A DNA stretch of 33,045 nucleotides from Candidatus Roizmanbacteria bacterium (lineage in GTDB: Bacteria; Patescibacteriota; Microgenomatia; UBA1406; GWC2-37-13). A program made the translations under genes and the position numbers. Each line of letters starts with the position of its first letter. Position 1 is the stretch's first letter. Below the pieces are notes generated by a model. That model was not told where the DNA came from. It did no database searches and saw nothing but the letters and a program-made list of their open reading frames with translations. Shown here piece after piece: positions 28,703 through 32,945 of the stretch. Location of the stretch: assembly GCA_902200405.1 (NCBI GenBank), contig CABIKN020000067.1, positions 1-33,045 of the forward strand, in the 5' to 3' direction.

Positions 28703-29794
28703 ATGGACGATCAAGTTTTGAAAATTGAGTGTCCCTATTGTCATAAAAAATTTTCAGCGGAGGAGGCGATAGGACACAAAATAAAAGACGATATTTCTAT
28801 TAAAGCAAAAGAAGAGGCAAAAAAAGAATTAGCAGATGAAATAAGATATTTAAAAGAAGCAAATGAAAAAAAAGATCAAGAGTTAGAAAAAACTAAAAAA
28901 ATTGAGTTAGAGCTTAGAAAAGAAAAAAATCAACTTTCAGATGATAAAAAGAATTTTGAACTAGAAAAACAAAGACAACTTGACTTAGAAAGAGAAAAAA
29001 TTCGTCAACAAACTGCCAAAGAAATTCTTGAGCAGCAACATTTTAAGATTGCAGAAAAAGATAAACAGATAGATGGTATGAAAAAACAAATTGAAGAACT
29101 GAGGATTAAATCAGAAAATAGCTCCCAACAACTTCAAGGAGAAGTTCAGGAACTTGATCTAGAGATAGAATTAAAAAAACTTTTCCCAACTGATGTGATC
29201 GAAGAAATAAAAAAAGGTGAAAAGGGAGCCGATGTGCGCCAAATAGTCAAAACCCAAAAAGGAAATCTCTGTGGGACAATTTTATGGGAATCCAAGCGTA
29301 CTAAGACTTGGAAAGATGATTTTATTATTAAATTAAAAGAAGATTTAAGATCTGAGAATGCCAATATCCCGATCATTGTGACGTCGGTAATGCCCAAGAC
29401 GAGCAATAACGATATTGACAATATTAGTGGGGTTTGGATTTGTACTTATCCCTTCGCGATGATCTTGGCAGAACTAGTTAGACAAAGGTTAGTCGAGGTA
29501 GCTAGAGAAAAATTTGTTATAAAAAATCAAGGAACAAAAGCAGATGACCTTTATTCATATATCATGGGTCACGAATTTCGTCAACAAGTTGAGGCGTTAG
29601 TTGAAACCTATATAACCATGAGAAGTGAATTGGATAGGGAACAAAGAGCCTTTGAAACTATTTGGAAACGAAGAGATGCCCAGATCGAGAAGATGGTAAA
29701 AAGTACAGCGAGGATTGTAGGTTCAATTGGCGGTAAGGCTGGATCAGAATTCCCTCAATTAAAAGGACTTGATCTGCTGGATTCAGGAAAATAA
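28703..29794 (+). CDS. DUF2130 family protein
   Basis: The 363-residue protein has a CPYCHKKF zinc-ribbon-like start, a long charged coiled coil (about 30-150), and a C-terminal DUF2130 domain. In that domain LFPTDVIEEIKKGEKGADVRQIV and GTILWESKRTKTW, with the E...K pair, recall the active site of restriction-like nucleases. FRQQVEALVETYITMRSELDRE is a conserved later helix. The function of the family is not established; nuclease activity is a suggestion from the fold. The extended -10 TGTTATAAT, nine bases before the ATG, gives an almost leaderless mRNA. Confidence 0.88.
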   Translation: MDDQVLKIECPYCHKKFSAEEAIGHKIKDDISIKAKEEAKKELADEIRYLKEANEKKDQELEKTKKIELELRKEKNQLSDDKKNFELEKQRQLDLEREKIRQQTAKEILEQQHFKIAEKDKQIDGMKKQIEELRIKSENSSQQLQGEVQELDLEIELKKLFPTDVIEEIKKGEKGADVRQIVKTQKGNLCGTILWESKRTKTWKDDFIIKLKEDLRSENANIPIIVTSVMPKTSNNDIDNISGVWICTYPFAMILAELVRQRLVEVAREKFVIKNQGTKADDLYSYIMGHEFRQQVEALVETYITMRSELDREQRAFETIWKRRDAQIEKMVKSTARIVGSIGGKAGSEFPQLKGLDLLDSGK

Positions 29795-29796
29795 TT

Positions 29797-30327
29797 ATGG
29801 ATGATTTTTTTTCGTTCATTTCCAAGACGGTAATAATTATTCCAATTTTTATTTTGATTATTTCATTATTTTTAAAATTCAACCAACCAAAAAAATCTAC
29901 AACGACATTAAATAATCTTTATGAGGGTCAGTCACTCCTGACTCCAACAACAATCACAACCGTAAATAACAATTCTTTTAAATTTGACCTTCAAGGGCCG
30001 ATTGTTTGTGAAAATTTGTTTATTCAAAATAAAAAGATTTTGTTAAAAAATAAATTAACAAATTATTTATTAAATGGCGACTGTCTGTATATTTGGGAGT
30101 CAGGAAAAGCAAATGGAGAAATGAGATGTAGCTTATCAAATTATATTAAAATGGCAGAAAGTTATTTAGGCAACTTTAATATTGGTGATTTGGTTACTAA
30201 TAATTTAATGAAAGATCTGATAAATAATAAAGATATAAACTTAGAAAGTGTGGTAAAAAGCTGTAAGAGGGAAGCGATAAAAGATAGTTCGATATTTAAT
30301 ATTCCAACCAAGGTACTGTTTAAATAA
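29797..30327 (+). CDS. Hypothetical anchored protein
   Basis: The 176-residue protein has an N-terminal membrane helix (about 11-28, VIIIPIFILIISLFLKF), a Thr/Asn-rich linker, and a domain with three cysteines (VCEN, GDCLY, MRCS) that may face the outside. The middle reads FDLQGPIVCEN...LLNGDCLYIWESG. A CPR family of anchored proteins with a similar pattern would fit, but I cannot name one. It follows the DUF2130 gene by two bases. Confidence 0.6.
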   Translation: MDDFFSFISKTVIIIPIFILIISLFLKFNQPKKSTTTLNNLYEGQSLLTPTTITTVNNNSFKFDLQGPIVCENLFIQNKKILLKNKLTNYLLNGDCLYIWESGKANGEMRCSLSNYIKMAESYLGNFNIGDLVTNNLMKDLINNKDINLESVVKSCKREAIKDSSIFNIPTKVLFK

Positions 30328-30354: not shown

Positions 30355-30472
30355 TCCCGGCTACGACCTACTTTCCCTTCATCTTTCGAAGTTAGTATCA
30401 TCGGCGCTGACTCGTTTCACGACCTTGTTCGGGATGGAAAAGGGTGGGACCAAGTCGCTCAAGTAACCAGGA
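30355..30472 (-). rRNA. rrf: 5S ribosomal RNA
   Basis: 118 bases with the 5S pattern: the first ten bases TCCTGGTTAC pair fully with the last ten GTAGCCGGGA (including G-U pairs). CCATCCCGAACAAGG is the conserved loop B/C part, and GAAAGTAGGTCG lies near the end. Nine T residues after CA complete a terminator. No 16S or 23S gene lies nearby. The promoter TTGTTT-17-TATACT (30510-30481 region) overlaps the start of the divergent PH-domain gene. Confidence 0.93.
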
Positions 30473-30479
30473 CGATTAA

Positions 30480-30510
30480 TAGTATATAATATATAAGGAT
30501 GGAAAACAAT
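30480..30510 (-). promoter_or_regulatory. Promoter of the 5S rRNA
   Basis: On the minus strand TTGTTT, 17 bases, TATACT, then eight bases to the 5S 5-prime end. The -35 lies within the first codons of the divergent PH-domain gene, whose own TATAAT lies at 30484-30489 on the other strand. Confidence 0.5.
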
Positions 30511-31050
30511 AATAAAAAAAGCTCTGCTTTCTATTCTTATATTCCTAATCCCCAGACTAAATTTGATACCCAAGAGGATGGCGAAAATATATATTTATTA
30601 CTTCGTAGCCATCCTTTTACTCAAATTGGTTGGGTTTTAAGTTCAATTCTTTTCTTTATTCTACTTTTTGTTTTCAATTTTTTTCCTCAAAGTTTTTTTA
30701 ATTTAGGACAGATATTGATAATCAACTTATTTTTTATTATTTTTATTCTCAGCTATATTTGGTTTAATATTTTAAATTGGTATTTTAACGTGGGAATAAT
30801 AACTAATAAACGGGTAATTGATATTGATTTTTATGCGGTTTTATATAAAGAAATTACCAACGCTCAACTTGGGAGAATAGAAGATACTACTGTAAAAAGT
30901 GGTGGATATATAGAATCATTTTTTGATTATGGATCAATTTTTGTCCAAACTGCTGGTACAGAAGCAAACGTTGAATTTATTAATGTTCCTCATCCATCTG
31001 ATGCAGTTCAAATAATTAATAAATTATTAAGCAAAAAACATGGATCTTAA
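30499..31050 (+). CDS. Membrane protein with bacterial PH domain
   Basis: The 183-residue protein has a soluble N-terminus, two membrane helices (about 43-64 and 71-95) and a C-terminal bacterial PH domain of the bPH_2/DUF304 type: VGIITNKRVIDIDFYAVLYKEI, AQLGRIEDTTVKSGG, and FDYGSIFVQTAGTEANVEFINVPHP. In this family the motif order TNKRVI-ARI(ED)I-YGDI is constant. The ligand is unknown. It overlaps the next gene by 11 bases and is the first of a three-gene membrane cluster. Confidence 0.85.
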   Translation: MENNNKKSSAFYSYIPNPQTKFDTQEDGENIYLLLRSHPFTQIGWVLSSILFFILLFVFNFFPQSFFNLGQILIINLFFIIFILSYIWFNILNWYFNVGIITNKRVIDIDFYAVLYKEITNAQLGRIEDTTVKSGGYIESFFDYGSIFVQTAGTEANVEFINVPHPSDAVQIINKLLSKKHGS

Positions 31051-31252
31051 AGGCGTTTTTTTTAAGGTTATTATCTTACTTTTTGCCATTTTTTATTTTT
31101 TTTACACTTTGGTAATTTCTAAACAAGTCAAAACTATGGATAAAACTCTTCAGGATAAATATAACTGGATAATCCTATTTATGACTTCATTGCAAGTGAC
31201 AGCCTCATTGATTATATTGATAATAGTATTATTATCAATATTAATAATTTAA
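31040..31252 (+). CDS. Short two-helix membrane protein
   Basis: The 70-residue protein has two membrane helices (about 8-26, VIILLFAIFYFFYTLVIS; and 45-70, LFMTSLQVTASLIILIIVLL) and a short polar loop with KQVKTMDKTLQDKYN between them. Similar short proteins recur in CPR genomes; I cannot assign a function. It overlaps the preceding PH gene and ends four bases before the next, so the three are likely made together. Confidence 0.7.
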   Translation: MDLKGVFFKVIILLFAIFYFFYTLVISKQVKTMDKTLQDKYNWIILFMTSLQVTASLIILIIVLLSILII

Positions 31253-31256
31253 CGGT

Positions 31257-32945
31257 ATGTTCAAGCAAGACTTAGGTTTTTATTTAGGAAATGAAAAAAT
31301 CGATGGTTTCTCCGGTTTTGTTGATGAAAATAATCTGTTTTTGGCAGTTGAAATTGAAGCGGGAATTACCCCTGATAAAGGTAGAGAATTAACTGCGTAT
31401 GTAAGAGAAAAAATTAAGCTTATAAAAATTGAAAATTTACAACAATTTGATGTCTTTATTTCAAACACTATTAAGGAAAAAAATCTTCCATCAGGATTTT
31501 CTTTTGCCTCGGGCTACTTAAAAGGAAATATTTTTTATTTAAAGACAATTAATCAAGGAAAGGTCTATATAAGACGAAATAATAAAATGGCCCTTCTCAT
31601 TGAAAGTGACCAAACCGCCTCCGGCTATATTAAAGAGGATGATATCTTTATTTTTACTTTCTATAGATTTATGAAACTGCTGGGGGATGAATCTGGATTA
31701 AACCAAAAATTTGATCATAAACCGATCTCAGAAGTTATCGACGAAATTACTCCAGAACTATTGACTAAAGACGATCAGGGAACTGCAGCTTTATTTATAA
31801 AACTAAGTAAAATTGAAGAAGAAATAAGGCCAGTGAACGATTTTTTTGAAGTCCCAAAGAAAATAAATCCACAGCAAAAAACATTGACATTTGTCACGGT
31901 TTTTATTCTTGGAGTAATTCTATTTTGGAGCGTCGGGTTTGGTTATATACGTAGAACTAACGAAAATAGTAGTAAAAAAATTAATTTAACCAAAGATTTG
32001 ATCAGCCAAAAATTGAGCCAGGCAGAGGAAGTATCATTCTTAAACATATCAAGTGCCCTAAGCTTGATTGCGGATAGTAAAACGGAAGCAAACAAACTTA
32101 AAAAAGAGTTAGGTGTTAAGAGTTATGAGTTAAGTGGATTGGAAAAAATGATCAATGATTCTGAAAATAAGATTCTGAAAAAAGAGGAAAAAAAATACTC
32201 AGAATTTTTTGATTTGACCGTCGACGATAAAGATGCAAAAGGAGACAAACTTTATCTTAACGGTGAAAGTCTTTTAATTAGTGATAAAAACAAGGGAGTT
32301 TTATATGAGCTTTCATTAGAAAAAAAATCTTTAGACAAAGATAGATCAAGTGAGGCAAAAAAATCTACCTTCATTGCTTTGTTTGAGGAAAAAAAATATT
32401 TTTTTGTCGAAGGTGTTGGCTTATATCAGATAGTTGACGGTAAAATAAAGAAAGTAATTGAAAATGATAAGGATTGGGGCAAGATTATTGACTTGGTAGT
32501 TTTTAACGGAAATATTTATTTACTGGACCAAGGGAAAGATGAAATTTGGAAGTACATGAGCGCGGAATCAGGGTTTGGTAGCAAAAATTCTTATTTTCAA
32601 TCCGGCCAATCAATTGATCTGTCTCAAGTAAATAGTTTAAGTATAGATGGTTCAATTTATTTAGCTGGTGACATGGTTATTTTTAAGTATACTTCTGGTT
32701 TGCGTGATGGATTTAAAGTTGAACTGCCAGGCGGGAGTGTTAATACATCTAAAATCTTTACAAGTAAGGACTTAGAAAAAGTTTACGGATGGGATAGAGA
32801 GAAGGGGGCAATTTACGTAGTGGGTAAAAACGGCGATTACCTCGAACAAGTAAATTCCAAGATTTTATCAACTGGCACAGACTTCGTTGTTTATAAAAAT
32901 ATAATCTATGTTTTACAGGGGAGCAAGATCTATAAGATTGAATAA
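31257..32945 (+). CDS. Pseudo-PP2C / membrane / propeller-like protein
   Basis: The 562-residue protein has three parts. Residues 1-195 look like a PP2C phosphatase fold (SGFVDENNLFLAVEIE, ASGYLKGNIFYLKTINQGKVYIRR, SGYIKEDDIFIFTF, KDDQGTAALFIKL). The aspartates that bind metal in active enzymes are not in their places (the GDSR position reads NQGK). A membrane helix follows at about 209-228 (TFVTVFILGVILFWSVGFGY), then a helical linker. From about 320 to the end come repeated strands such as LYLNGESLLISDKNKGVLYEL, NIYLLDQGKDEIWKY and IYLAGDMVIFKY, as in a beta-propeller. It probably senses inside and displays the propeller outside. Confidence 0.65.
   Translation: MFKQDLGFYLGNEKIDGFSGFVDENNLFLAVEIEAGITPDKGRELTAYVREKIKLIKIENLQQFDVFISNTIKEKNLPSGFSFASGYLKGNIFYLKTINQGKVYIRRNNKMALLIESDQTASGYIKEDDIFIFTFYRFMKLLGDESGLNQKFDHKPISEVIDEITPELLTKDDQGTAALFIKLSKIEEEIRPVNDFFEVPKKINPQQKTLTFVTVFILGVILFWSVGFGYIRRTNENSSKKINLTKDLISQKLSQAEEVSFLNISSALSLIADSKTEANKLKKELGVKSYELSGLEKMINDSENKILKKEEKKYSEFFDLTVDDKDAKGDKLYLNGESLLISDKNKGVLYELSLEKKSLDKDRSSEAKKSTFIALFEEKKYFFVEGVGLYQIVDGKIKKVIENDKDWGKIIDLVVFNGNIYLLDQGKDEIWKYMSAESGFGSKNSYFQSGQSIDLSQVNSLSIDGSIYLAGDMVIFKYTSGLRDGFKVELPGGSVNTSKIFTSKDLEKVYGWDREKGAIYVVGKNGDYLEQVNSKILSTGTDFVVYKNIIYVLQGSKIYKIE

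Follow-up and report, generated by a model that had tools for sequence, protein, structure and literature searches.

PknD of Mycobacterium tuberculosis is a receptor Ser/Thr kinase with a single membrane helix and an NHL propeller outside the cell. Phosphatases of the PP2C type, which in bacteria include PstP (1txo), STP of S. agalactiae (2pk0) and PppA (6jkv), bind metal through the motifs DG.G, [ST]DG and D[ND].[ST]. Membrane proteins of the bPH_2 family (PF03703) have a PH fold beside two membrane helices. In animals, PHLPP2, a protein named for its PH domain, has a PP2C-type domain with lost activity (part of the text of PMC12002173); it is eukaryotic, carries PH and PP2C domains in one chain and shows no sign of kinship with the module described here. 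A literature search found no paper naming the DUF5657 family (PF18901) and no recorded function for it.

Within the CPR, 51 of 106 enriched families are radiation-wide, and 35 families are enriched in Microgenomates, mainly hypothetical proteins of which 14 are predicted to be membrane proteins (main-text passages of Meheust et al., 2019; PMC6744442).

Here we describe a module of three genes, A, B and C. The protein of gene C shares the predicted plan of PknD (a signalling-type fold, a single membrane helix and an NHL propeller), but its presumed inner domain has a PP2C fold without the catalytic set where PknD has a kinase. C also differs in an inserted helical hairpin and in its coupling to PH and DUF5657 genes, and has 12% sequence identity to PknD. 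An earlier sequence-only reading had called the module undescribed, which fits what was found: no Pfam or NCBIfam family covers C, searches combining the module's terms with CPR or Patescibacteria returned no relevant paper, and term searches of PMC10633639 and PMC11665869 gave no match. C may be among the CPR-enriched families of Meheust et al. (2019), though the main-text passages do not describe it. The folds of all the parts are known; what is new, as far as searched, is how they are combined and that the combination is conserved.

The gene trio and its surroundings

The window, a stretch of 33,045 nucleotides from a Candidatus Roizmanbacteria genome of 1.18 Mb, carries the trio at its right-hand end, on the forward strand. 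Gene A (30499..31050) encodes a two-helix membrane protein of 183 aa with a PH-like domain, as judged from its ORF and a predicted model, and gene B (31040..31252) a two-helix DUF5657 protein of 70 aa. Gene C (31257..32945) encodes 562 aa comprising a pseudo-PP2C domain, a membrane helix, a helical hairpin and an NHL-type propeller. In the ORF listing A runs 11 bases into B and a gap of 4 bases separates B from C, so that the three overlapping or near-touching genes first read from the sequence do lie where they were placed.

The sole rRNA gene in the window, for 5S rRNA (30355-30471, reverse strand), lies directly upstream of A. A 5S gene was also found upstream of A in all ten relatives scanned, on the strand opposite to A in eight and on the same strand in two (L041 and L042). 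Further upstream is a gene for a protein of 176 aa (29797-30327, forward strand) with one N-terminal hydrophobic stretch. In 23 of 43 loci a member of its family precedes the trio, mostly behind a DUF2130 gene (28703-29794 in the window), and neither the window's member nor two relatives had a Pfam match. This protein was rejected as a part of the module, as the 5S rRNA gene intervenes on the other strand and Pfam offers no match.

Architecture of the C protein

Sequence-only searches of solved structures gave little: the profile of C matched NHL and coiled-coil structures only weakly, at E 0.00072 at best, and that of A matched none, so that comparison of folds was needed. Profiles for NHL, DUF5128 and SGL likewise matched weakly, in 3-6 of 43 C proteins. 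The AlphaFold model of C, built with 43 homologues, has a mean pLDDT of 90.8 and a pTM of 0.60; with a low pTM beside a high pLDDT, the single domains can be relied on, but not their placement relative to one another.

Residues 1-185 (31257..31811) match PP2C structures closely, with Z 19.1 and an rmsd of 2.8 over 184 residues for 2pk0, Z 18.9 over 181 residues for 1txo and a Foldseek E value of 5.4e-8 for PppA (6jkv); this is the fold common to C and the bacterial phosphatases. Residues 207-306 (31875..32174) form, in the predicted model, a long helix with the membrane span (207-260) followed by a helical hairpin (264-285 and 290-306). A hydrophobic segment scoring above 1.6 is present in 116 of 117 C homologues. 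Residues 309-562 (32181..32942), presumed to lie outside, are predicted to form a six-bladed NHL-type propeller, matching 1q7f with Z 23.5 and the extracellular domain of PknD (1rwi) with Z 21.3 and an rmsd of 2.7 over 232 residues. Within the class the propeller is the best-conserved part, with a mean pairwise identity of 0.337 vs 0.247 for the PP2C-like part. Both folds had been proposed from the sequence, with differing folds named in advance as a refutation, and the structural matches bear them out.

The placement of the PP2C-like part inside and the propeller outside is weakly supported by charge bias around the span: of 117 homologues, 76 have more Lys and Arg on the N side and 26 on the C side, and the window's own C, with three such residues on the N side and four on the C side, runs opposite to the majority trend.

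The W-S-V motif of the C membrane helix is conserved only in the window's class. The linker between the PP2C-like part and the membrane has a median of 130 aa where A and B are missing vs 40 and 80 aa where the trio is present. It is suggestive that the presence of A and B is thus mirrored in C, in motif and linker length.

Loss of the PP2C catalytic site

The catalytic site was followed through 117 C proteins, drawn from 123 loci as those longer than 450 aa with a profile match, plus L147; they span the window's class and other lineages. Their profile aligned with true PP2C proteins of relatives (hhalign P 1.5e-6), which served as controls from five loci. The presumed metal-site columns read E32, Y136 and D173 in the window's C; the hhalign match spans only the middle one, and the positions of columns 32 and 173 were judged by eye from the strand pattern and the motifs. 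The three Asp occur together in none of the 117 homologues and two of them in five. Asp remains in 8/117 at column 136, its place in the [ST]DG motif; column 32 carries Glu in 60 and Asp in 14, and column 173 carries Asp in 33. A motif check that is free of any alignment agrees, with all three motifs in 0/117 C proteins vs 3/5 controls. Compared with true bacterial PP2C proteins, about 36 alignment columns are also missing from C ahead of the SDG-like region.

On this evidence from sequence, C looks like a pseudo-phosphatase throughout its homologues, as had been proposed when the domain was first called inactive. The PP2C_2 model scores above its cut-off in 7 of 54 relatives and does not do so in the window's own genome.

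The two small membrane proteins

The A model (AlphaFold, mean pLDDT 87.2) has two membrane helices, at residues 39-59 and 69-96, and a PH fold. Its best matches are 5yqr (Z 9.6), which is eukaryotic, and the bacterial PH domains 3dcx (Z 9.4) and 3hsa (Z 9.3); these Z values are modest, and the top structural matches agree with the profile matches. The window's A has no Pfam match at E<=1, unlike the bPH_2 proteins that it otherwise resembles, and it differs from them too in being the constant partner of DUF5657. Across its relatives, bPH_2 was matched at E<=1 by 30 of the 38 aligned proteins (best E 6.4e-6), an alignment that excluded two A proteins, one truncated (L039) and one split (L062). 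The PH-domain membrane protein of the earlier reading is thus confirmed as a predicted fold.

The small two-helix protein of that reading turned out to have a family: B belongs to DUF5657 (E 2.1e-12; 47.5 bits vs a curated cut-off of 25). Several polar residues are conserved in 41 B proteins, namely K9 (38/41), Y19 (38/41) and Q29 (36/41), and position 52 is Gln in 34 and His in 7, hence one or the other in all. Retention of polar residues in or near the helices is as expected for packing against partners.

Distribution and gene linkage

C is present in 55 of 57 relatives and in 232 of 286 sampled genomes of the phylum. The close relatives include Candidatus Roizmanbacteria, with 80% identity for C, and a scan of genome contigs with six short peptides matched two close relatives. 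DUF5657 was found in 63 of the 286 phylum genomes and in one of 14 control genomes, where it scored below the cut-off.

Wide gene context was read at 43 loci, made up of 40 loci, the window and two more (L031 and L032, from G008 and G015); twelve C-bearing relatives lie outside this set (G001, G002, G005, G007, G009, G014, G019, G021, G024, G032, G036 and G046). B directly precedes C in 41/43 of these loci and A and B together do so in 40/43, the exceptions being L043, which has neither A nor B, L070, which has B only, and L072, where C stands alone. The spacing of A and B ranges from -80 to 8 bases and that of B and C from -61 to 142, mostly as overlaps or gaps of a few bases; the extreme overlaps may reflect wrong start codons from a simple ORF caller.

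Across the phylum, the three genes are contiguous in 59 of the 63 genomes with a DUF5657 match. In 40 DUF5657 loci that were read, A was adjacent in all and C in 37, one of these (L147) by way of translation. In L148 and L149 A and B lie apart from C, so that the pair stays together even where C has moved away, and in L155 the contig ends. The remaining 23 DUF5657 genomes were judged by hand from coordinates: 22 have the trio, and G099, whose match is weak, has neither A nor C. DUF5657 therefore adjoins A in 62/63 genomes.

Outside the DUF5657 lineages C is mostly alone, with varying neighbours. Forty further phylum loci were read, in one of which (L090) the simple caller gave no C ORF. The three genes need not occur together, since most genomes of the phylum have C without A and B. 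The linkage of A, B and C is nevertheless far beyond chance, and both it and the anatomy of the module are well supported; absence of conserved linkage had been set in advance as a refutation, and the order was found kept.

Companion genes

Deep members of the class, and other lineages too, have a SpoIID-domain protein of about 600 aa encoded immediately upstream of A (clusters c21 and c6). It has a long, helical-looking N-terminal part, presumably an EnvC/PcsB-like coiled coil, and in 20 of 40 loci the first long gene upstream of A belongs to this long-helix family. SpoIID (PF08486) was confirmed at E 3e-17 or better in the three proteins tested. SpoIID occurs in 61 of the 63 DUF5657 genomes vs 83 of 223 others, an odds ratio of 51 that ignores relatedness; it shares the contig with B and lies within 15 kb of it in 49/63, and within 4 kb in 42/63. 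The module has no SpoIID gene next to it in the loci of the window's genus, nor in the window's genome, where the gene is on another contig.

Where C stands alone, a gene for a PBP, a DivIC/FtsL-like, MraZ/RsmH-like or MreB protein was found in 18 of 30 loci, a count without a background control; MraZ and RsmH are named here from sequence. These 30 are the 40 loci less eight trio loci, L090 and L097. A YidC-type insertase gene stands by some of the lone C genes. What we take from their sequences to be SmpB- and ComF-like genes share the module's neighbourhood, and some of the linkage may therefore be plain synteny.

Kinases or FHA proteins had been suggested as partners to be sought in relatives. 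FHA proteins were found in none of 54 genomes and a kinase in 12/54; the three kinase matches of the window's own genome are on contigs other than the window's, and the window's C has no Pfam kinase match. With FHA absent and kinases rare, a kinase/FHA circuit is unsupported, and we rejected it as a general partner of the module. The sequence-only reading, which suggested that the module may form a sensing complex, is thus supported in part: the PP2C and propeller folds and the conserved gene order have stood, and the kinase/FHA connection has not.

In loci of the window's genus, a pair of small proteins (about 95 and 125 aa), each with two helices, is encoded downstream of the trio on the opposite strand (cluster D; 10580-11247 in L031). 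By eye they resemble pilins of the VirB2/TrbC type.

Possible function

The reading that we favour, tentatively and with some way to go before it could be called probable, is that the module is a transmembrane receptor or scaffold of the envelope, PknD-like with a dead phosphatase, and tied to cell-wall remodelling. We infer the orientation of C, a complex of A, B and C, the binding of a ligand and the link to the wall, which might fit together as follows. The propeller of C would bind a ligand or partner outside, be it the wall, an envelope protein or the surface of another cell, and the helical hairpin and membrane helix would relay its state inwards. Inside, the PP2C fold with its metal site lost would act as a non-catalytic docking element or conformational switch, and C would have as membrane partners the PH-like A and the tiny hairpin B with its conserved polar residues. 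The output would be the control or placement of cell-wall remodelling, likely in that the SpoIID-domain enzyme is the commonest genomic companion. A bolder version, which we regard as doubtful, has C founding a phylum-wide group of transmembrane pseudo-phosphatase receptors, which together with A and B would gate wall cutting in growth or host attachment, the dead PP2C domain reading the propeller.

EssB, the pseudokinase of type VII secretion, is an analogue for another account, in which the trio would belong to the framework of a machine for secretion, pilus formation or protein insertion, with the dead PP2C domain as a cytoplasmic scaffold. Three tightly coupled membrane proteins, a phylum-wide C and an inert enzyme fold inside would suit such a machine, as would the cluster D two-helix proteins near the trio of some relatives and the YidC-type gene by some lone C genes, yet there is no consistent linkage to an ATPase, a channel or a pilin and the neighbours differ by clade; we think this account improbable. 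We rate as very unlikely an active, divergent PP2C-type phosphatase receptor that binds metal through other residues. The fold is indeed kept across 181-184 residues, and the acidic residues at column 32 in 74 homologues, with D173 in 33, make a partial metal site conceivable, but the [ST]DG Asp is gone in nearly all C proteins and the full Asp trio in every one, the motifs persist in the true PP2C proteins of relatives, and a matching circuit is not evident where PP2C_2 is above cut-off in so few relatives and FHA in none.

The conservation of the propeller cuts both ways for the idea that C is an adhesin-like display protein, its propeller binding host or neighbour surfaces and its inner domain merely anchoring it. 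Propellers are adhesin candidates elsewhere, such as PilX2 of the type IV pili of Saccharibacteria (in part of the text of PMC12206443), and no other part of C is as well conserved within the class; surface variation would, however, be expected of an adhesin, and anchoring needs no whole conserved PP2C fold, which makes this idea distinctly unlikely. Adjacency by ancestral synteny only, without joint action, could draw on flanks that are conserved in places too (SmpB-like, ComF-like and 5S rRNA genes) and on the many genomes in which C is alone. It nevertheless seems very unlikely, given that the order and overlapping starts of A, B and C persist while clades exchange their flanks, and that DUF5657 so rarely leaves the side of A.

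Whatever its output, C persists across most of the genomes sampled from a huge and barely cultivated group and has no Pfam or NCBIfam model, which makes it a good candidate for a core envelope function. The module gives DUF5657 a constant gene context and suggests a dead-phosphatase counterpart to receptors of the PknD type. The operon of SpoIID enzyme, PH protein, DUF5657 protein and pseudo-PP2C/propeller protein offers a concrete entry to envelope remodelling in ultrasmall bacteria.

A-type proteins across the phylum

An A-type protein was found in 242 of the 286 phylum genomes, many of these being weaker PH proteins elsewhere in the genome. Several A-type PH homologues have a single in-frame stop (TAG, TAA or TGA) inside the match, namely those of G285, G194, G205, G125, G077, G072, G305, G184 and G083. 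These stops may represent pseudogenes, sequencing errors or recoding.
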